Origin: Subtercola boreus
GTDB lineage: Bacteria > Actinomycetota > Actinomycetes > Actinomycetales > Microbacteriaceae
NCBI RefSeq assembly: GCF_006716115.1
Contig: NZ_VFOO01000001.1
Span: 2,108,001 to 2,172,000, forward strand
Length of the DNA: 64,000 nucleotides
Direction of reading: 5' to 3'
The notes under the pieces are model-generated. The model ran no database searches. It had not been told where the DNA came from and was given only the letters and a program-made list of their open reading frames with translations. A program made the translations under genes and the position numbers. Shown here piece by piece: positions 38,769 to 47,934 of the stretch (position 1 is the stretch's first letter; the number at the start of each line of letters is the position of its first letter).

Positions 38769-38836
38769 CAAACGGACGTCGTTCCGCCCGAACGGACGCC
38801 ACTGCGAGGTCGTGTCGGCGGAGGCTCGTCCGTTTG
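38769..38836. repeat. Intergenic palindrome-ended element, copy A
   Basis: 68-bp element bounded by perfect 10-bp inverted termini CAAACGGACG and CGTCCGTTTG, lying between the dipeptidase and the DUF559 gene. The inner 62 bp (38775-38836) align without gaps to copy C at 45422-45483 (about 47 of 62 identical by eye) and more weakly to copy B at 39915-39976. The bases before it (38703-38760) are a C-rich low-complexity tract. Confidence 0.75.
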
Positions 38837-38936
38837 ACCGCGCGTCTTCCCGTCCCCACAGGTCCTCGGGGGGCAGTTGTCCACAGATCCGCGCGATCGA
38901 CCACACTGGCTCACCTCGACGCGGAACACTGCTGGC

Positions 38937-39860
38937 ATGAGCATCCTCGACGTCGTCACACAGTTGGGTGGAGTCGTGCACCAGGGCAGACTCCTCCCTT
39001 TCGGCTACACCGCCTCCGATGCGAGAAGGGCGGTGCGAGGCGGGATGCTGCTCCGCCCTCGCCAGGGCTGGGTGGCCACTCCGGATGCAGCCGACGCTGA
39101 CGTCTCCGCCGTCAGGGTCGGCGGATCCCTGACCTGCCTCTCTGTGCTGAGATCCGCCGGAATCTGGTGCATCGACGACGGTCTGCTCCATGTGCGGGTA
39201 GGTGTTCACACGACCCATCTGGCCTCGCCGCACAGTCGCACCGAACCGCTCGGCGACCCCGCGGCGAACGGGGTCTCACTGCATCGCGCGGCAGCAACTG
39301 CCGGCCCAAGGCCACCCCGAGCGCGCGACGATGTCGAATGGGCACTCATGCACATGGTCGCGTGCCAGCCACGGGACCATGCGGTCGCAGCATTCGACTC
39401 TGCGCTCAACCAGAAGCTGACCACCCGCCGACGCCTCAGCCTGCTGGCGGACCAGCTCTCACAGAAGCACCGGGACGTTCTTGCCCTGGCCGACTCCTCG
39501 GCGCAGTCCGGCCTGGAGACGAAGGCCCGGCTTCGACTCCGCGCCCGCCACATCCCCTATCGAACGCAGGTGTACATCCCGCCCGCCGGAGCCGTCGATC
39601 TGCTGATCGGCGACCGGCTGGTGATCGAACTGGATGGCCGAGAATGGCACACCTCCGATGAGGCCTTCTTCGAGGACCGCCGCCGTGACTTCGAGTTCCA
39701 CGAGCAGGGACGTATGGTCAGGCGCTTCACGTACGCGCAAGTGATGTTCGAGTGGGGCCGTATCGAGGCCATGATCAGAGGCACGGTGAAGCGGGGAGAA
39801 CACCGGTGGAGCAGACGGCAGCTCGCGGCCGGGCTCGGCCGCCCTGGTGCCGGAGCGTGA
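38937..39860 (+). CDS. DUF559 domain protein (Vsr-like PD-(D/E)XK fold) with N-terminal winged helix
   Basis: 307 aa. The N-terminal 70 residues (LGGVVHQGRLLPFGYTASDARRAVRGGMLLRPRQGWVATP) resemble the winged-helix AbiEi-antitoxin-like N-terminus frequent in actinobacterial DUF559 proteins. The C-terminal domain has GAVDLLIGDRLVIELDGREWH followed by FFEDRRRDFEFHEQGRMVRRFTYAQVM, the D...E-x-D/G-x-x-W-H pattern of the Vsr-like nuclease fold. Activity and target are unknown. AACACT ends 6 nt before ATG 38937. The gene is flanked by copies A and B of the intergenic palindromic element. Confidence 0.85.
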   Translation: MSILDVVTQLGGVVHQGRLLPFGYTASDARRAVRGGMLLRPRQGWVATPDAADADVSAVRVGGSLTCLSVLRSAGIWCIDDGLLHVRVGVHTTHLASPHSRTEPLGDPAANGVSLHRAAATAGPRPPRARDDVEWALMHMVACQPRDHAVAAFDSALNQKLTTRRRLSLLADQLSQKHRDVLALADSSAQSGLETKARLRLRARHIPYRTQVYIPPAGAVDLLIGDRLVIELDGREWHTSDEAFFEDRRRDFEFHEQGRMVRRFTYAQVMFEWGRIEAMIRGTVKRGEHRWSRRQLAAGLGRPGAGA

Positions 39861-39905
39861 GCACGGGGCCGGAGCCCGAACCCCACGCCGACCCGGGCCC
39901 GGATG

Positions 39906-39979
39906 GCACGAATCGACGAGGCTCAGCGCAGACGGCGTCGCATGGGGAGCCGTGGTGGCTGAGCCTCGTCCGTTCGTGC
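39906..39979. repeat. Intergenic palindrome-ended element, copy B
   Basis: 22-bp imperfect inverted repeat (39906-39927 against 39958-39979, 20 of 22 matching) around a 30-nt loop, between the convergent DUF559 and dppF-like genes. Right arm GCTGAGCCTCGTCCGTTCG is shared with copies A and C. It may act as a terminator hairpin for both genes. Confidence 0.75.
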
Positions 39980-40011
39980 GCGCACGGGGGGCGGGGCGGA
40001 CGGGGCGGGGG

Positions 40012-40794
40012 TCAGGCCGCCGGCAGGCGGCCGAGTCCGTCGGCGACCGGGATGGCGGCGAGCAGGCGCTGCGTGTACGGGTCGGCGGGGTGCGACCAGA
40101 CGGAGGCGACGGGGCCGGTCTCGACGATGCGGCCGGCCTGCATGACGGCGACACGGTCGGCCACGACGCGGACGACCGACAGGTCGTGGCTGATGAACAG
40201 CAGCGAGGCGCCGTTCTTCAGCGCGACATCCCGCATCAGGGTCGCGACTTTGGCCTGCAGCGAGGCGTCGAGGGAGGCGATGGGTTCGTCGCCGACGAGG
40301 ATGTCCGGCCGCGCGCCCATCGCGCGGGCGATCGCGATGCGCTGCCGTTGCCCCCCAGAGAACTGGTGCGGGAACATGCCCGCCGCGCTCCGCTCGAGTT
40401 CGACGTCGTCGAGCAGCTGGCCGACGGATGACCGCACCGACGCATCGGCGATGGCCAGGGCATCCGCGATCTGCTCTCCGACCCGCCGGCGCGGGTTCAG
40501 CGAACTGTACGGGTTCTGGAACACCATCTGGATGCGCAGCAGATGTGCCGGCCGACGCCGGAGTCCCAGCGTGACGACGGGTTGGCCGTCGAACTCGACC
40601 GTGCCGGAGGCGAGCGGTTCGAGCCCGCAGATCGCGCGCGCGAGCGTGGACTTTCCGCAGCCCGACTCCCCCACAAGCCCCAGCACTTCGCCGGGGGCGA
40701 GGTCGAAGCTGACGCCGTCGACGGCCGCGAGGAGGCGCCGCCCGGGCAGCTTGTACGTGACGTGGGCATCGCGCACAGTGAGCTGGCCGGCCAT
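40012..40794 (-). CDS. Peptide/nickel-type ABC transporter ATP-binding protein (DppF/OppF-like)
   Basis: 260 aa ABC ATPase: Walker A GLVGESGCGKSTLAR (residues 39-53), Q-loop MVFQNPYSSLNPRRRV, signature HQFSGGQRQRIAIARAM, Walker B DILVGDEPIASLD and the H-loop FISHDLSVV. The DppF/OppF mark S-S-L-N-P after the Q-loop is present. The C-terminal PYTQRLLAAIPVADG is the family end. Start overlaps the previous stop as ATGA. It is the last gene of the importer operon. Confidence 0.93.
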   Translation of the reverse strand: MAGQLTVRDAHVTYKLPGRRLLAAVDGVSFDLAPGEVLGLVGESGCGKSTLARAICGLEPLASGTVEFDGQPVVTLGLRRRPAHLLRIQMVFQNPYSSLNPRRRVGEQIADALAIADASVRSSVGQLLDDVELERSAAGMFPHQFSGGQRQRIAIARAMGARPDILVGDEPIASLDASLQAKVATLMRDVALKNGASLLFISHDLSVVRVVADRVAVMQAGRIVETGPVASVWSHPADPYTQRLLAAIPVADGLGRLPAA

Positions 40795-41663
40795 CAGATG
40801 GCGTCCTTTCCGAGCGGGAGCTGGATGGTGTTGGGCGCGTCGGCAGGAGGGGCCGGCGGGTGCGGCAGCGCATCGATCAGCGACTTCGTGTAGGCGCTCT
40901 GCGGCTCGCGGATCACCTGGTAGCGCGAGCCGTGCTCCACCACCTCGCCGTACCGCATCACGGTCACGGTGTCGGCGAGTGCGCTCATCACACCGAGGTC
41001 GTGCGTCACCAGCAGGATCGCCAGGTCGAGGGTGTCGCAGAGTTCCCGCAGCAGGCGCAGGATGCCCGCCTGCACGGTCACGTCGAGCGCCGTCGTGGGT
41101 TCGTCCGCGATGAGCACGCTGGGCTCCGAGGCGAGCGCGATCGCGATCGCGATGCGCTGCAGCTGGCCGCCGGAGAACTGGTGCGGGTACTTGCGAAGCG
41201 CCGTCTCGGGGTCGGGAACACGAACACGCGACAGGAGCGCGAGGGCACGCGAGCGCGCCTCCGATCGCGAAATGTGCAGGTGGTGCCGCATCCCGTCGGT
41301 GAGCTGCGCCTCGATGGTGATCATCGGGTGCAGGCTCGCCGTCGGGTCCTGGAAGATCATCGCGATCTCACGCCCGCGGAGCGCGTTCATCGCGCGCGGC
41401 CTCAGCGCGAGCAGGTTCGCCGCCGAGCCGCGGGGGCCGGTGTACGAGATGGTGCCGCCGAGGCGGGATCCGGCCGGCTGCAGCCCACAGATCGCGAGCC
41501 CCGTCATGGTCTTGCCGGAGCCCGACTCACCCGCTAGGCCCGTGATGGACCCGGCGGGGATGTCGAGGTCGATGCCGCGGAGGATCTGCTTGCGGGAACC
41601 CTTGGAGCCGAGTTCGAGAGTCAGGCCGCGGAGCTGGAGGCCGTGCGGCATGGTGTCGCTCAA
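40794..41663 (-). CDS. Peptide/nickel-type ABC transporter ATP-binding protein (DppD/OppD-like)
   Basis: 289 aa from TTG 41663, which overlaps the permease stop (TTGA) and follows an AGGGGG Shine-Dalgarno; ATG 41651 is possible. Walker A GLAGESGSGKTMTG, Q-loop MIFQDPTASLHPMITI, signature HQFSGGQLQRIAIAIAL, Walker B VLIADEPTTALDV, H-loop LVTHDLGVM. The C-terminal ALPHPPAPPADAP is typical of the oligopeptide C-terminal region but lacks the usual Cys pair. Pairs with the DppF-like protein to power the importer. Confidence 0.92.
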   Translation of the reverse strand: MSDTMPHGLQLRGLTLELGSKGSRKQILRGIDLDIPAGSITGLAGESGSGKTMTGLAICGLQPAGSRLGGTISYTGPRGSAANLLALRPRAMNALRGREIAMIFQDPTASLHPMITIEAQLTDGMRHHLHISRSEARSRALALLSRVRVPDPETALRKYPHQFSGGQLQRIAIAIALASEPSVLIADEPTTALDVTVQAGILRLLRELCDTLDLAILLVTHDLGVMSALADTVTVMRYGEVVEHGSRYQVIREPQSAYTKSLIDALPHPPAPPADAPNTIQLPLGKDAI

Positions 41664-42604
41664 ATCTTCACCCCCTGCACAGCGCCCGCGGTGCGCGGGT
41701 CGAGCGAGTCGCGGAGCGCATCGCCCACGAGGTTGAACGCGACAACGACCGTGAAGATCGCGAGCCCCGGGAACGCCGCGAGCCACCAGTCGCTGAACTG
41801 CTGCACGCCGTCGGCGACCATGGCGCCCCACTCCGGCGTCGGCGGCGTCGCCCCGAGCCCGAGGAACGACAGCCCCGACAGCAGCAGGATCGCGTTCCCG
41901 AAGTCGAGCGTCGCGAGCACCAGCACGGGCGCCGCCACGTTCGGCAGGATGTCGCGCTGCAGCGACCGGAACGGGCTGAAGCCGAGCAGCCGCCCGGCCA
42001 CCACGTACTCCCGCGAGCGCGCGCCGAGCACCATCGACCGCATCACCCGGGCGTAACTCGGCCACGACACGAACAGCAGCGCGATCACGGCATTCGTGAG
42101 GCTCGGGCCGAGGGCGGCCGTCACGATCATGGCCAGGATGATCGTGGGGAACGCGAACACCAGGTCGGCGATCCGCATGATGATCTCATCGACCGCGCGG
42201 CCGAAGTAGCCCGCGATGGCCCCGAGCACCGACCCGATGATGGCCGACGCAACGACGAGGATGAGTGCCAGCGGCAGCGAGATCCGGGCCCCGTAGAGCG
42301 TGCGGCTGAGCACATCGCGGCCGAGCGAGTCGGTGCCGAACCAGTTGACGGGCCCCGGCGGCTGGAGCCTGTCGAACTGCTGAGCGAGCGGATCGAAGGG
42401 CGCGATCCACGGCACGAAGATCGCGACGATGAACCAGAGCGCGATGATCGTGAAGCCGATGATCGCCATCGGGCGGCGATAGGCGCTGGGGAGCCGGAGC
42501 CGGGAGCGCACGGCCGAGAAACGGAGGCGCGTCGCGGCACCGGCGGTCGGAGCATCCAGAGCGGGATCCCGGAGGTCAGGGTTACTCAGGTCAGGGCTGG
42601 TCAC
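41660..42604 (-). CDS. ABC transporter permease (DppC-like)
   Basis: 314 aa, six membrane segments after a polar N-terminus. FGTDSLGRDVLSRTLYGAR is the DppC/OppC signature, followed by PLALILVVASAIIGSVLGAIAGY and the ABC-contact EAA loop VVAGRLLGFSPFRSLQRDILPN. The C-terminal GLGATPPTPEWGAMV motif is conserved in the family. Overlaps the DppB-like gene by 4 nt. Confidence 0.94.
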   Translation of the reverse strand: MTSPDLSNPDLRDPALDAPTAGAATRLRFSAVRSRLRLPSAYRRPMAIIGFTIIALWFIVAIFVPWIAPFDPLAQQFDRLQPPGPVNWFGTDSLGRDVLSRTLYGARISLPLALILVVASAIIGSVLGAIAGYFGRAVDEIIMRIADLVFAFPTIILAMIVTAALGPSLTNAVIALLFVSWPSYARVMRSMVLGARSREYVVAGRLLGFSPFRSLQRDILPNVAAPVLVLATLDFGNAILLLSGLSFLGLGATPPTPEWGAMVADGVQQFSDWWLAAFPGLAIFTVVVAFNLVGDALRDSLDPRTAGAVQGVKI

Positions 42605-43653
42605 TGCACACGCACCCGGGGGTCGATGACGCCGTACACGACGTCGATGATGAAGTTGGTCAGGATGTACACGACGCCGACGACGAGTCCCACACCCATC
42701 ACAGCCGGAAGGTCGAGGGTCGTCGCCGACTTGTAGGCGTACTGTCCGATGCCGCCCCAGCCGAACACCTGCTCGGTCAGCACCGTGCCCGAGAGCAGCG
42801 AGCCGAAGGCGAGGCCGACGATTGTGAGGATGGGCAGGGATGCCCCGCGGAGCACGTAGCGGAAGATCACAGCCGCCGAACTCAGGCCCTTGGCGCGTGC
42901 GGCGAGCACGTACTCCTGGTTCAGAACGTCGAGCACCGCCGACCGCGAGAAGCGCACGAGGAGGCCGACCGTGAAGAGGATCAGCACGAGGCCGGGGAGG
43001 ATCAGGTGCGACAGGGCGTTCCAGAACGTCGTGTACTGCCCCGCGACCAGCGCGTCGATCGTGTACATGCCCGTCACCTTCGGCGGGGCTTGGAGCGATG
43101 CGCTCAACCGGCCCGTTCCCGGTGCCCAGTGCAGTTGGTAGAAGAAGACGTAGAACGCGGCGAGCGCGAGCCAGAAGGTCGGGATGGAGATGCCGATGAG
43201 GCTCACGACGCGGAAGAGCTGGTCGACGAACCGGTTCTGCCGGATCGCGGCCCAGGTTCCGAGGCCGACACCGATGATGATCGAGAAGACGATCACGAAC
43301 AGCGCGAGCTCGGCCGTCGCCGGGAAGGCGACCGACAGGTCCTGCGAGACCGGGTTGTGCGACTGGGTCGACGTGCCGAGGTTGCCCTGGAGGAGGTGCC
43401 CGATGTACACGAGGTACTGCGTGACGACCGGCTTGTCGAGCCCCTGCGCCTCCCGGAACGCTGCCACGATGGCCGGGTCGGATGCCGCCCGCTCACCGAG
43501 TGCGGCCTGGGCGGGGTCGGCGGGCACCAGGTTCGCCAGCGTGAACGTGACGAGGGTGACGCCGAAGATCAGCAGCACGCTGATGCCGAACCGGATGAGG
43601 ATGTAGCGGGCCAGCGGCCCCAGGTGCGGGCCACGACGGAGCGTGACCGGCAC
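42601..43653 (-). CDS. ABC transporter permease (DppB-like)
   Basis: 350 aa from GTG 43653. The first membrane segment YILIRFGISVLLIFGVTLVTFTLANLVPADPA is the DppB mark, then a periplasmic loop, YLVYIGHLLQGNLGTSTQ, and an EAA loop VLAARAKGLSSAAVIFRYVLRGASLPI followed by VLTEQVFGWGGIGQY. Forms the channel with the DppC-like protein. Confidence 0.94.
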   Translation of the reverse strand: MPVTLRRGPHLGPLARYILIRFGISVLLIFGVTLVTFTLANLVPADPAQAALGERAASDPAIVAAFREAQGLDKPVVTQYLVYIGHLLQGNLGTSTQSHNPVSQDLSVAFPATAELALFVIVFSIIIGVGLGTWAAIRQNRFVDQLFRVVSLIGISIPTFWLALAAFYVFFYQLHWAPGTGRLSASLQAPPKVTGMYTIDALVAGQYTTFWNALSHLILPGLVLILFTVGLLVRFSRSAVLDVLNQEYVLAARAKGLSSAAVIFRYVLRGASLPILTIVGLAFGSLLSGTVLTEQVFGWGGIGQYAYKSATTLDLPAVMGVGLVVGVVYILTNFIIDVVYGVIDPRVRVQ

Positions 43654-43706
43654 CTGGGCGCTGGTGGTTGTGGTGCTGATGAGCGTCTCTTACTTGTTGT
43701 CGGTGA

Positions 43707-45293
43707 TTACTTGATGTCGGCGATGTTGACGGTCCAGACCGGGTTGAGCTCGAGGTTCGAGATCTCCGAGGTCGTGACCGCGTACTGGCCGGGCTGGATG
43801 ACCGGGATGAACGGCCCCGTCGCGTTGGCGGCGTTCTGCCAGGCCTCATACGCGGTCTTGCGGGCGTCGTCGCCGCTCGCGGCGGAGGCGGCGTCGGCAG
43901 CGGCCGTGACCGTGGCGTCGGAGCCCGCGGCCCAGCCGGCACGGAGGCCGAGCGACTCACCCGGGTTGAAGACCAGGTAGTCGGCCGGGTCCGGGTAGTC
44001 CGGGCCCCAGTACATGATGCCCGACTGGAGCTTGCCGGCGCGGAAGGCGTCGAGGAAGGTCGAGATCGGTGACGGGGCGAGGGTCAGGGTGATTCCGACA
44101 TCCTTCAGCTGGGACTGGATGGCCTCAGCGAGGGTCTGCATCTGCAGGCCGTTCACGGTGATGTCGTTCGGGTACGAGAACGTGACCGCCTGGCCCGAGT
44201 ATCCGGATGCCGCAAGCGACGCCTTGGCCGCGGTGAGGTCGAACACGTTGGCCGGGTCGCTGGTGATCGCGCCGAGGAACATCGACGGAACCATGCCGCC
44301 GGGCTGCGTGGAACCCTCACCTGCGATCGACAGCAGCTTGCTGTAGTCGATGCCCTGGCGCACGGCCTTCACGAAGTCGGCGTTGTCGGTGACGCCACCG
44401 GAGACGGCCGGGTCCTGGTTGTACCAGCTGTAGATCAGGTACGGCGAGGCATCCTTCAGCACCTTGACGGAGCTGTCCATGCCCTGCACCTGGTCGGCGT
44501 TCAGGTCGAGCGCGACCTGCGTCGAGCCGGCCTGCACATTGATCTTCTGCGTGGGGCCCTCGACGTTCTCGAGCACGACGCGGCTGTAGGCCGGCTTCTC
44601 GCCCGCATAGCTCGGGTTCGGCGCGAAAGCGACCTTCGTCGTCACATCGAACGACTCGAGCTGGTACGGACCCGAGCCCGCAGACGTCTTGTTCAGGAAG
44701 GCCTCGGCCGCGTCATCCGCACCGGTGGTGCCGCCGTTGGCCTTCAGCACCTTCGAGTTCACGATGCCGAGCGACGGGTTCGGCAGGATGAACGGCAGGG
44801 CCGGGTTCGAGGCGGCGCTGGTGAGCGTGACGGTCGTGTCGCTGGTCTTCGCGACGGTGACGCCGTCGAGCAGGAACGACGGGTTGCCCGCGATGCCCTG
44901 CACGCGCTGCAGTGAGAAGACGATGTCGTCGGCGGTGACCGGCGAGCCGTCGGAGAACGTGTGGGTGCCGGTCATCGTGAGGGTGAGCACCGTGTTGTCG
45001 GCGTTCTCCTCGAACGAGGTGATGCCCGGGACGACCTTGGTGACGTCGCTGCCCTCGAAGTCGAGCGCTGTCTCGTAGATCGCCTTGTCGACGATGCTGC
45101 CGGTGAGCTCGAACGCGCGGGCCGGGTCGCTGGTCTTGAGGTCGAACGACTTGTCGATGACGAGCGTCTTGTCGGCGGCCCCCGTCGAGGAGGTCGACAC
45201 GGAGTTGTCGGTGCAGGCCGAGACGGCGAGCACCGAGGCGAGGCCGAGGGCCACGAGGGCAGTGACCCGTACGGGTCGGGCGGGTAGTTTCAC
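43707..45293 (-). CDS. ABC transporter substrate-binding lipoprotein (SBP family 5)
   Basis: 528 aa from GTG 45293 with GAGAGG upstream. Lipoprotein signal peptide: basic start, hydrophobic VTALVALGLASVLAVSAC with Cys28-type lipobox (LAVSAC). The mature protein has the family pattern: FELTGSIVDKAIYETALDFEG, HTFSDGSPVTADDIVFSLQR, the NPSYAGEKPAYSRVV segment, VRQGIDYSKLL, and MYWGPDYPDPADYL in the C-terminal lobe. Captures peptides, glutathione-like compounds or nickel chelates outside the membrane; ligand unknown. First gene of the operon, behind the palindrome at 45355. Confidence 0.93.
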   Translation of the reverse strand: MKLPARPVRVTALVALGLASVLAVSACTDNSVSTSSTGAADKTLVIDKSFDLKTSDPARAFELTGSIVDKAIYETALDFEGSDVTKVVPGITSFEENADNTVLTLTMTGTHTFSDGSPVTADDIVFSLQRVQGIAGNPSFLLDGVTVAKTSDTTVTLTSAASNPALPFILPNPSLGIVNSKVLKANGGTTGADDAAEAFLNKTSAGSGPYQLESFDVTTKVAFAPNPSYAGEKPAYSRVVLENVEGPTQKINVQAGSTQVALDLNADQVQGMDSSVKVLKDASPYLIYSWYNQDPAVSGGVTDNADFVKAVRQGIDYSKLLSIAGEGSTQPGGMVPSMFLGAITSDPANVFDLTAAKASLAASGYSGQAVTFSYPNDITVNGLQMQTLAEAIQSQLKDVGITLTLAPSPISTFLDAFRAGKLQSGIMYWGPDYPDPADYLVFNPGESLGLRAGWAAGSDATVTAAADAASAASGDDARKTAYEAWQNAANATGPFIPVIQPGQYAVTTSEISNLELNPVWTVNIADIK

Positions 45294-45354
45294 GGTGGAA
45301 CCTCTCGTGCGAGATGCGGGGGTCGTCTGGTGGTAGGCGCTAGTGGTACGTGCT

Positions 45355-45370
45355 GTATTACCTGTTATAC
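45355..45370. promoter_or_regulatory. Imperfect 16-bp palindrome at the ABC operon promoter, candidate GntR-type operator
   Basis: GTATTAC-CT-GTTATAC (6 of 7 arm positions pair) in an AT-rich patch, 62-77 bp upstream of the binding-protein start. Read on the minus strand TATAAC inside it is a good -10 box, so a repressor bound here would block the promoter. The GTnTnnAC type of dyad resembles GntR-family sites; no regulator gene adjoins. Confidence 0.5.
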
Positions 45371-45415
45371 CGTCCAGACATTTCGAACGCATTTCTTTCT
45401 GTGCCGCTTGCCTTT

Positions 45416-45483
45416 CGGGTCGACGTCGCTCAGCCCGAACGAGTGGCTCTGCGGCACCGTGTCGGCTCAGGTTCGTCCGTCTG
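45416..45483. repeat. Intergenic palindrome-ended element, copy C
   Basis: 62-bp core 45422-45483 (GACGTCGCTCAGCCCGAACG at the left, GGTTCGTCCGTCTG at the right) aligned gap-free with copies A and B. Terminal dyad is weaker than in copy A (about 6 of 10). It lies 12 nt past the stop of the PBP gene and about 120 bp upstream of the ABC operon start. Confidence 0.7.
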
Positions 45484-45495
45484 CGTGATCTGCGG

Positions 45496-47934
45496 TCAGT
45501 TGGCTGGCGCCGGGCCTGCCGTGGCAGCGGGGCGAGGCGCCGACGTCTGGCCGGGGGCGGGGGCGGGCACCTGGCTCCCGTCGCTGGTGTACACGACCAC
45601 CGTCGAACCGCGGCCCGCGGAACCCGAGGGGTTGGTGCGTGCAACCGTGCCGGCACGCTGGTCGGAGGCCGTGGATCCACCGTCCTGGAACTCGAAGCCG
45701 GCTGCCTCGATCGCCGAACGCGCCGCCTGGATCGACTGGCCGACTACCGACGGCACCGGCACCTGGACGCCCTGCACGAGCGAACGATCGGGTGCCGGGA
45801 ACGCGTCGCCGCCGTACTTGCCGTCGGCAGCCGTCATGTAGTCCTTCCAGACGAGGTGGCGGAGGCTCGCCCCGTTCGTGCCCTCGATCGACGAGTTGCG
45901 GAGTGAGACACCGCCGACGACGTTGCCCACCCAGACCGCGGTCGTGAGGTTGGTGGTCGAGCCGACGAACCAGGTGTCCTTCTCGGAGTCGGTCGTGCCC
46001 GTCTTGCCGAAGTGCGGGATGCCGTTCCGGGGGTTGGATGCGGTGGCCGTACCACTCGTGACGACACTGGTCAGCGCGTAGGCCATGGTCGCGGCGATCT
46101 CCGGCGAGACGGCAGGGGTGCAGGCGGCCGGCGGCAGCGCGAGCTCGGCGCCCGTGGCGTCCACGATGCGGGCGATCGAGACCGGCGCGCAGTAGACGCC
46201 CTCGTTCGCGACGGCAGCGAACGCCGCCGCCATGTCGAGGGGTGCGATCTCGTTGGTACCGAGCACGTCGGAGGGGTACGACGTCAGCTCGTCGCCGTCG
46301 GCGCGCGCCACCCCGAACGCCTCGGCGGTCTTCCGGATCTCGCACTGGTCGAGCCGTTCCGCCATCGTGAGGTAGGCGTTGTTCACGCTCGACGCGGTCG
46401 CGCTCAGCACGCTGATCGTGCCCGGGTTCGACCCTCCGTCGTTCTTCGACGAGTAGGTGCCGGGGCCCGGGCCCTGACAGGAGTTCGCAAAGCTCGAGAT
46501 GTTGAAGGTGCGCTGGTTGCCGTTGACGCGGTCGTTCAGCGCGTTGCCCTGCTTCAACCACTCGGCGAGCGTGAAGATCTTGTAGGTCGAGCCGACCTGG
46601 AAGCCGGTGGATCCGCCGTCGTCGAACCGGGTGCCGTAGTTGACCGCCGTGCTCTCCGGGGTGGCCGCATCGGGGTCGGTGTTGTACTCCTTGTTCTGCG
46701 CCATCGCGAGCACCTTGCCGGTGCCGGGCTCGACGGTCACCAGCGACGCGCCGAGGTCGAGCACGCCGCTCGAACGCGGAACGTGGTCGTCGAGTTTCGC
46801 GTGGGCGGCCGCCTGCAGGTCCACGTCGAGGGTGGTGTACACGTCGTATCCGCCGCGGCTGAGGCTCTTGGCGACGCCGTCCTCGTCGGTTCCGAGCAGG
46901 GCGCGGTTGACGATCTGGCGGCCGACATAATCGCAGAAGAAGCCGGCGCCGAGACTGTTGGCGGTCGAGCATCCGGTCGACACCACCGTGATCTGGGGCG
47001 TGACCGGAGTCGCCAGCGCCTCCTCGTACTGCGCCTGGGTGATGGCGTTGGCCTTCAGCATCGCGGGCAGGATGTCGAGGTCGCGGCGCGCCTGGTTGGC
47101 GGCGATGTTGTCGGGGTCGTCGATCCGCAGACCGTTCGGCTCGTTGACGATGGCGATGAGGCTGGCGGCCTGGGCGAGGCTGAGGTTCGCGGCATCCACA
47201 CCGAAGTAGCGTTTCGACGCCGACTGGATGCCGTACGTCACCCCGCCGAAACTGGCGATGTTGAGGTAGCCGAGCAGGATGTCGCTCTTCGAGAACTGCT
47301 TCTCGAGGCCGATGGCGAGCTTCATCTCCTTGAGCTTCCGGTCGATGGAGGTCTGTGTGGCCTGCTGGTAGGCGAGGGTGCGCTCGACCTCATCGGTGAT
47401 CGCCTCGGCCCGTTGCACGAGGATGTTCTTGACGTACTGCATCGAGATCGTCGACGCCCCCGATTCGACGCCACCGGATGCCGCGTTGCCGAGCGCCGCG
47501 CGCATGGTCGCCGCCACATCGACGCCGCCGTGCTGGTAGAACCGCGGATCCTCGGTGGAGACCACGGCGTCCTTCGCGAACTGCGAGATCCGGTCCCAGG
47601 CGACCTCCTCCCTGTCCTGCTCGAAGACCGAGGCCAGCAGCACCGTCGCACCGCTGCCGTCGACCGCGTAGATGTTGCTCTTCTGCGGCAGCTGGTCGGG
47701 CCGGATGTACTCGGGCAGGCTCGTGAACACGCCCAGCGTGCTCGTCGCACCCACGCCCGCGACGGCAACGACCGGCGTGACCATGGCGGTCACGAGAAGG
47801 CCCGCGACGGAGCTCAGCCCGAGGAGCCCGACGGCCGCGCCGAGCTTCGTGCCGACGGCGCGGCCGAACCGGGAGCCGCGGGAGGCGGGGTGGGTGGTGT
47901 TGCTCGTGCGTGGGGTACGGGGGTTCTGCGTCAT
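45496..47934 (-). CDS. Class A penicillin-binding protein with one PASTA domain
   Basis: 812 aa. One N-terminal membrane anchor (residues 38-65), then a GT51 glycosyltransferase domain with catalytic Glu128 in VVSTEDPRFYQHGGVD and the SASTISMQYVKN-type motif (here GASTISMQYVKNIL). Transpeptidase domain: Ser449 in GSTYKIF (SxxK), SSVNNAY (SxN), FGKTGTTDSE (KTG). The C-terminus has one PASTA domain (VPVPSVVGQSIQAARSAIEAAGF) and a Pro/Ala-rich tail. A bifunctional peptidoglycan synthase with all active-site residues in place. Confidence 0.96.
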   Translation of the reverse strand: MTQNPRTPRTSNTTHPASRGSRFGRAVGTKLGAAVGLLGLSSVAGLLVTAMVTPVVAVAGVGATSTLGVFTSLPEYIRPDQLPQKSNIYAVDGSGATVLLASVFEQDREEVAWDRISQFAKDAVVSTEDPRFYQHGGVDVAATMRAALGNAASGGVESGASTISMQYVKNILVQRAEAITDEVERTLAYQQATQTSIDRKLKEMKLAIGLEKQFSKSDILLGYLNIASFGGVTYGIQSASKRYFGVDAANLSLAQAASLIAIVNEPNGLRIDDPDNIAANQARRDLDILPAMLKANAITQAQYEEALATPVTPQITVVSTGCSTANSLGAGFFCDYVGRQIVNRALLGTDEDGVAKSLSRGGYDVYTTLDVDLQAAAHAKLDDHVPRSSGVLDLGASLVTVEPGTGKVLAMAQNKEYNTDPDAATPESTAVNYGTRFDDGGSTGFQVGSTYKIFTLAEWLKQGNALNDRVNGNQRTFNISSFANSCQGPGPGTYSSKNDGGSNPGTISVLSATASSVNNAYLTMAERLDQCEIRKTAEAFGVARADGDELTSYPSDVLGTNEIAPLDMAAAFAAVANEGVYCAPVSIARIVDATGAELALPPAACTPAVSPEIAATMAYALTSVVTSGTATASNPRNGIPHFGKTGTTDSEKDTWFVGSTTNLTTAVWVGNVVGGVSLRNSSIEGTNGASLRHLVWKDYMTAADGKYGGDAFPAPDRSLVQGVQVPVPSVVGQSIQAARSAIEAAGFEFQDGGSTASDQRAGTVARTNPSGSAGRGSTVVVYTSDGSQVPAPAPGQTSAPRPAATAGPAPAN

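Follow-up and report, generated by a model that had tools for sequence, protein, structure and literature searches.

Palindromic repeats bracketing DUF559 genes in Subtercola: a candidate two-part repeat system

The closest described relatives of the system considered here are the REPIN-RAYT systems (repetitive extragenic palindromic, REP, doublets forming hairpins, and REP-associated tyrosine transposases), in which, according to the portions of two studies drawn on here, short extragenic inverted repeats commonly carry compensatory changes and the cognate gene is flanked by copies of the repeat; species with several repeat families have repeat-specific genes, and the gene tree largely tracks the species (PMC3116915, PMC3733652). 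The CGTC-tagged REPs, one large class of dispersed palindromes, are apparently without a dedicated transposase in the relevant portion of one of these accounts (PMC3733652), and according to a review the EDxHD enzyme I-Bth0305I forms a dimer on its target, which spans nearly 60 bp (PMC3943268). The present analysis concerns a stretch of 64,000 nucleotides of a Subtercola boreus genome (contig NZ_VFOO01000001.1, positions 2,108,001 to 2,172,000; hereafter the window), in which three palindromic elements, copies A, B and C, lie between genes, and A and B stand on either side of a gene of the DUF559 family (Table 1). Such brackets were found at DUF559 genes of other Subtercola genomes as well, and a search of open-licence papers found no report joining DUF559 to palindromic repeats.

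Palindromes on both sides of DUF559 genes

An earlier note, made from the sequence of the window alone, had pointed out that A and B bracket the DUF559 gene, and this arrangement was found to be real and recurrent. When the same fixed procedure, with a score threshold of 50, was applied to 44 DUF559 genes from 12 Subtercola genomes and to 442 other genes, 25 of the DUF559 genes and none of the controls were bracketed by matching palindromes, and at a threshold of 48 the counts were 28 of 44 and 4 of 442. The A-DUF559-B bracket, which scores 50, is therefore not a coincidence. In 20 of the 25 bracketed genes the two copies are 1.0-1.2 kb apart, and different DUF559 genes are bracketed by different palindrome families, also within a single genome. 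A preliminary conclusion that the palindromes have no link with DUF559, drawn from the observation that only one of four DUF559 genes in the window's own genome adjoins the window's family, was overturned by the other families found at the other genes. Taken as a pattern of sequences, this makes a cognate pairing of palindrome and DUF559 gene nearly certain in our estimation.

The Subtercola DUF559 proteins fall into two classes, with 17 genes in class I, the window's kind, and 27 in class II. An element model built from Subtercola copies only (R2) found matches on both sides of nine class I genes, on one side of three and on neither side of five, and no adjacent match beside any of the 27 class II genes. 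Class I genes occupy five different loci in the genus, each common to two to five genomes.

A second palindrome family, F2, brackets another DUF559 gene of the window's genome (at 3634270). Its arm word was matched 87 times in that genome (G000), 23 times in S. boreus P27479 (G002), 86 times in S. boreus P27444 (G003) and 13 times in Subtercola sp. Z020 (G007), with no match in the other eight genomes and a single match overall in the reversed control. The proteins closest to the F2-bracketed one are those of G002, G003 and G007 (71-75% identity), the next-closest (62%) belonging to a genome without the F2 word (G006), and F2 brackets the genes of G000, G002 and G003. F2, the one further family tested, thus occurs exactly in the genomes with the closest DUF559 proteins (4/4 vs 0/8 genomes; Fisher P 0.002, uncorrected for relatedness).

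The pairing is not confined to Subtercola. Under strict filters, R2 matched 15 of 199 genomes of the family, four of them Subtercola. In two genomes of another genus (G200, G087), R2 elements 1043 and 1044 bp apart flank a class I DUF559 gene whose product is 50% identical in amino acids to that of the window, and in a third genome of that genus (G149) one element adjoins a class I gene; at the other 10 of the 13 R2 loci, no class I DUF559 gene lies within about 1.5 kb on either side. In a sample of the phylum, DUF559 was present in 72 of 198 genomes, and 50 loci were examined, 30 fetched by search and 20 picked from a listing before their flanks were seen. With a threshold of 46, brackets were found at 14 of 39 long-type genes (at least 270 aa) and at 1 of 11 short-type genes, and the same score was reached by 0.69% of 1452 cross-genome pairs, by one of the 1170 shuffles and by none of the 78 same-locus controls. 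Two of three Tsukamurella plasmid matches were scored: a gene on a Tsukamurella tyrosinosolvens plasmid (NZ_LR134454.1, EL451_RS09230) has a bracket scoring 54, and the other, scoring 46, was not counted. One short-type gene (L351, G348:C1:2293730) is flanked by TGTTTCACGTGAAACA repeats, which presumably resemble parS sites.

The dispersed family and its orthologous sites

Copies A, B and C are imperfect palindromes with a unit length of 68 bp. The identities that the earlier note had counted by eye over a 62-bp ungapped alignment, 47/62 for A-C and 39/62 for B-C, proved exact, and A-B gave 40/62. Over 68 bp, A matches B at 43 positions and C at 48, beyond the best match of A (38/68) in ungapped comparison with 500 dinucleotide shuffles of the three spacers. 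Folding z-scores were -3.3 for A, -5.9 for B and just -0.4 for C, so that C on its own is a poor hairpin. All three copies lie at gene 3' ends, as had been proposed: A is 3' of a dipeptidase gene, B stands between the 3' ends of the DUF559 and an ABC-transporter gene, and C, about 13 bp 3' of a minus-strand gene (45496-47934), is additionally 5' of the next minus-strand gene.

Table 1. Features of the window (positions in window coordinates)
Feature	Position	Strand	Description
Palindromic element copy A	38769..38836	+	68 bp; upstream bracket of the DUF559 gene; R1 model 63.3 bits
DnaA-box-like motif TTGTCCACA	38877..38885	+	between copy A and the start of the DUF559 gene
Free-standing class I DUF559 gene	38937..39860	+	307 aa; predicted AbiEi-like N-terminus (seen in some relatives) and C-terminal EDxHD/Vsr-like nuclease domain
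Palindromic element copy B	39909..39976	+	68 bp; downstream bracket of the DUF559 gene; R1 model 71.4 bits
Palindromic element copy C	45416..45483	+	68 bp; dispersed solo copy; R1 model 32.6 bits

These copies belong to a large family in the window's own genome (4.2 Mb, in which the window is 2108001-2172000 of contig C1). The 12-base right-arm word CTCGTCCGTTYG occurs there 16 times, and the reversed control has none. Whole palindromes account for 14 of these words, and the other two (L001, L006), which do not fold as the element, look like coincidences. With a covariance model built from 13 own copies, 37 separate places were identified at E <= 0.1, a closer search added one, and a wider model added at least five more (1749133, 1772301, 3128321, 3269518 and 3569541). 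With 150 candidates scored per genome, copy counts are lower bounds, and the family comprises about 40 or more dispersed extragenic copies. Their length is nearly fixed, mostly 67-68 bp, and none of the 38 placed copies lies inside a predicted gene. Four copies form an array with a spacing of about 147 bp (3856673-3857182; L078 4074-4583), whose orthologous spacer in G003, a short one, showed no element, and two more form a second array (3843334 and 3843438). A search of Rfam 15 gave nothing at the gathering score, only sub-threshold matches to microRNA precursors at eight loci. Three draft contigs of Subtercola sp. Z020 (C21, C2 and C87; L115, L263) start 15-26 bases from an element, which suggests that assemblies break at palindromes and undercount them.

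When 63 copies taken from 10 Subtercola genomes are aligned, both sides have changed in 24 of the 26 arm pairs, and 245 double-change cells were observed against 98 in column-shuffled and at most 108 in slid versions. Most of the 63 copies were found by a pairing-aware model, and the set is thus biased toward pairing; the orthologous A and B copies were found by synteny. Covariation in the 13 own copies alone was not above shuffles and became strong just when relatives were added. Tens of extragenic copies with compensatory arm changes, which the earlier note had expected of a true family, were found, and it is the palindromic structure, with both arms changing together, that is conserved. Within copies, G-T and A-C pairs showed no skew, the count being 77 where 75.8 was expected and, for the outer pairs, 54 where 51.7 was, and a function of one strand as single-stranded nucleic acid (RNA) is accordingly unsupported.

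The orthologous sites of related genomes were found to keep positions and replace arm words. The DUF559 gene orthologous to that of the window is flanked in G003 and G007 by palindromes of the same size with different outer arms on both sides, whereas in S. boreus P27979 (G001) copy A, the gene and copy B, whose joint presence or absence the earlier note had proposed to compare, are all absent from the orthologous spacer. In G002, which has the gene, the element is clear at B alone and was seen at A only by eye. Among 35 loci around the dipeptidase gene, a DUF559 gene is present in three only (L173, L200 and L207). Of the 17 orthologous spacers that were readable in G003, nine hold an element, compared with 13 among all 372 G003 spacers. 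Hit-selected stretches supplied three of these sites (692028, 2861330 and 3675474), and leaving them out gives 6 of 14. The remaining 8 of the 17 own sites are without the element in G003, among them that of copy C, and two of the eight (81631 and 2172191) hold other sequence inserted between the flanks. The nine occupied sites contain ten elements in G003, all of which, apart from one of the pair at 692028, have the word CGGGAGG; own copies have ACGGRCG-like words. At orthologous sites, then, the element often persists and the outer arm words differ by species, in both arms and at many sites at once.

In addition to its ACGGRCG-type copies, the own genome has a few copies with the S. boreus arm word CGGGAGGAGC (L061 3238-3296 and L077 5482-5552), and it is possible that they represent an older dialect or a foreign arrival. 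The arm words are accordingly dialects of differing abundance, not strict species marks.

In a scan of 0.96 Mb of G003, 50 long palindromes were found, 40 of them intergenic, whereas 0.4 Mb of Markov sequence yielded 2. Among the 50 are several unrelated repeated families as well as ordinary short terminators, and brackets of DUF559 genes explain many of them. In the same genome (L219-L258, L266-L274), several unrelated palindrome families of 45-70 bp, with words such as CATCGAGTGGGCAGTT, CGATCCACCGAAATCTGTCG, GTCGACTTTCCCGTTTGCGC and CATCGACTGGGGAGTT, were observed in intergenic and often convergent positions, not all of them matched to a DUF559 gene.

The position of the own copies relative to genes raises the possibility that the palindromes are bidirectional terminators lacking a U tract, or RNA-processing hairpins, with the DUF559 gene flanked by chance. 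With every spacer entered a single time, convergent ones make up 21 of the 33 in the own genome, where 17-20% would be expected (P 2e-9 by count, 5e-8 by length), and just one of the 33 is divergent, where 29% would be expected (P 2e-4), the expectation being taken from the window and G003 stretches with genes called by an in-house codon-score script, not a published gene finder; moreover, A and B, though not C, fold better than shuffles. This gene-end position is the part of the terminator suggestion of the earlier note that stood, and it leaves the upstream-side bracket and the cognate pairing unexplained. A same-family pair on both sides was found at no control gene at threshold, F2 occurs only in the genomes that have the closest DUF559 type, and 8 of 17 own sites are without the element in a close relative. 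Additionally, inspection of the 20-base flanks of 37 copies found no T run, the copies have no strand skew, and the palindromes are not a set of classical T-run terminators. It is thus unlikely that terminators or processing hairpins account for these elements.

The DUF559 protein and the proposed system

The protein of the window is predicted to combine an AbiEi-like N-terminus with an EDxHD/Vsr-like nuclease domain. All 19 aligned members of its group, the three orthologs of the window protein included, match PF18741 (REase_MTES_1575) and PF04480 (DUF559) at E <= 0.01, some of them under the curated cut-offs. At the same E value, AbiEi_4 was matched by 7 of the 19, N-terminally wherever its place was shown, and the Vsr model, a weak match, by 3. 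In a profile search of solved structures, the best match was 3r3p, 'Mobile intron protein' (E 1.4e-4), which we take to be I-Bth0305I, with 3hrl, 'Endonuclease-Like Protein', at E 1.9e-4. Six residues are invariant in 19 of 19 (E194, D221, E231, D233, H238 and D247; motifs S-G-x-E, V-D, E-x-D, H and D), and these acidic and histidine positions presumably fit an EDxHD-type site. The window protein is 55-60% identical to its three orthologs, whose adjacent dipeptidases are 84-88% identical; over the first 200 alignment columns the protein identity is 50-53%, and over the rest 65-75%, a fast divergence of the N-terminal part that would be expected if DNA recognition evolves fast. The neighbours of the gene in the window are Peptidase_M19 and ABC_tran genes, and a family search at this locus found no adjacent AbiEii toxin gene. 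Between copy A and the gene lies the motif TTGTCCACA; among the Subtercola DUF559 genes, TTNTCCACA is present upstream of 11 of the 17 in class I and of none of the 27 in class II. We take TTGTCCACA/TTNTCCACA to resemble a DnaA box, and the expression of class I genes may be tied to replication.

Considering the pairing, the dispersed family and the predicted nuclease together, it is probable, with a good deal of room for doubt, that palindromes and DUF559 gene are the two parts of a single repeat system, REPIN-RAYT-like in function with an unrelated enzyme. Two suggestions of the earlier note are thereby joined: that of a REP- or MITE-like element (miniature inverted-repeat transposable element), which stood as regards the dispersed extragenic family, and that of the footprint of a putatively mobile unit carrying the nuclease gene, which stood as regards the gene-palindrome unit. 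As to how such a system would work, we give about even chances to a cut-and-copy mechanism. In it, a protein dimer would bind its palindrome through the AbiEi-like end and the EDxHD/Vsr-like domain, with one subunit per arm, and would cut or nick at the element, after which repair would copy another element in a homing-like gene conversion. This copying repair would swap old arm words for the word preferred by the current protein, which could explain positions that are retained with their arms replaced, and rare insertion at new extragenic sites could explain the unshared copies. The gene would persist because it is placed between two copies. Additionally, the occurrence of class I genes at five loci in the genus, each in several genomes, suggests rare relocation of the entire bracket.

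The same scheme may be extended, tentatively and at slightly less than even chances, to the long-type DUF559/AbiEi proteins across Actinomycetota, which are currently filed as orphan antitoxins or unknown nucleases. They could act as the enzymes of palindrome-based selfish elements that make up a class of their own, in which a dimer would read the palindrome, homing-like repair would copy between sites, protein and arm word would co-evolve, and genomes would switch arm dialect in concert.

Several observations weigh against the two-part system. In Subtercola, 19 of 44 DUF559 genes are below the bracket threshold, as are 25 of 39 long-type genes elsewhere in the phylum, and in both sets some have weaker visible brackets and others none. 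When the arm words of brackets were compared with dispersed arm words, those of the same genome ranked first for 10 of 20 bracket elements, second for 2 and fourth to tenth for 8, with a dispersed sample that comes mostly from the own-genome model and in which G010 and G011 hold just one and two copies. Copy number shows no clear relation to whether a genome has a bracketed class I gene, the arm words are not strictly species-specific, and the F2-type gene of G007 has no F2 word on its 3.5-kb contig, though that genome holds 13. No copy was seen moving: spacers diverge too fast for empty-site alignments to yield clean insertion junctions, and no target-site duplication was visible on inspection of flanks too diverged to offer clean empty sites. 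Within copies there is no strand bias of G-T over A-C pairs that would point to one kind of nucleic acid as the one recognised. Finally, the window protein falls just under the Pfam DUF559 cut-off (18.6 against 20.6 bits) and AlphaFold models its nuclease half poorly (mean predicted local distance difference test score, pLDDT, 51), with confidence for about the first 50 residues only, so that the nuclease fold is a putative one.

These observations leave two further explanations to be weighed. The DUF559 proteins could be sequence-specific DNA-binding regulators, with the bracketing palindromes as operators for autoregulation and the dispersed copies as a regulon or as chromosome-organising sites, a reading that suits the AbiEi-like N-terminus (recognised in 7 of 19 members), the dyad symmetry of the site and the pairing of gene and palindrome family by family. 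However, promoter-bearing divergent spacers are avoided (1 of 33) and none of the 38 placed copies is in a gene, sites filled in one close relative are vacant in another, and the nuclease-type residues invariant in 19 proteins would not be needed by a pure regulator; we consider this reading improbable. No better chance is given to the idea that MITE- or REP-like elements are moved by an unrelated transposase and that DUF559 genes parasitise them as landing or homing sites, in spite of the similarity to homing endonucleases and the occurrence of class I genes at five genus loci. The matching of genes and palindromes by family within one genome would then need many unrelated transposases, no arm-only copies mark an autonomous MITE parent (14 of 16 arm words being in whole palindromes), and the Y1/RAYT transposase (PF01797), the only transposase family searched for, was found in 0 of 12 Subtercola genomes by a search whose control was positive in 5 of 14. 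REPs moved by a RAYT are ruled out by the same absence, and arms serving as DNA-uptake words by the same 14 of 16.

The pairing of palindromes and DUF559 gene does not involve the RAYT family, is seen in several genera and can be tested, and it suggests a possible role for proteins whose function is unassigned. The arm words, changing in concert at conserved sites, offer a natural record of the co-evolution of a protein and its DNA target, and the presence of several gene-palindrome pairs in single genomes makes recognition testable by swapping pairs in vitro.

Comparison with described systems

With the type IV toxin-antitoxin system AbiE, the locus shares the AbiEi-like N-terminus, and a plasmid homologue is annotated as an AbiEi family antitoxin; the window gene is, in contrast, alone at its locus, with no AbiEii partner and with a nuclease-like C-terminus, and it is not part of an AbiE toxin-antitoxin pair there. 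The similarity to EDxHD homing endonucleases lies in the catalytic domain, through 3r3p, and in the target, since a dimer site of nearly 60 bp, as given for I-Bth0305I in the review cited above, resembles a dyad site of this size. However, the window gene lies outside any intron or intein, free-standing between two whole palindromes instead of interrupting one, and it has many target-like sites, which are dispersed; strictly speaking, it is no homing endonuclease. The CGTC-tagged REPs are likewise palindromic, extragenic and without a RAYT, and the own arms contain CGTC, whereas the present family has a cognate nuclease-like gene.

The greatest overlap is with REPIN-RAYT. Both have dispersed extragenic repeats in tens or more per genome (here 38 placed copies, 0 in genes, and 87 own F2 arm matches), an inverted doublet or hairpin with compensatory changes (24 of 26 pairs in 63 copies), conserved ends around a variable yet paired middle, a cognate gene between copies and repeat-specific genes for each family. 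The system is nevertheless not filed as REPIN-RAYT: these repeat features are shared, but a search for the RAYT that defines such systems found none. The bracketed protein is here a DUF559/EDxHD-like nuclease, and the repeat is a near-symmetric whole palindrome of near-fixed length (67-68 bp). Since the pairing, each time with a palindrome sequence of its own, recurs in further genomes of the phylum, it has the look of a selfish repeat system of a kind that has received little notice.

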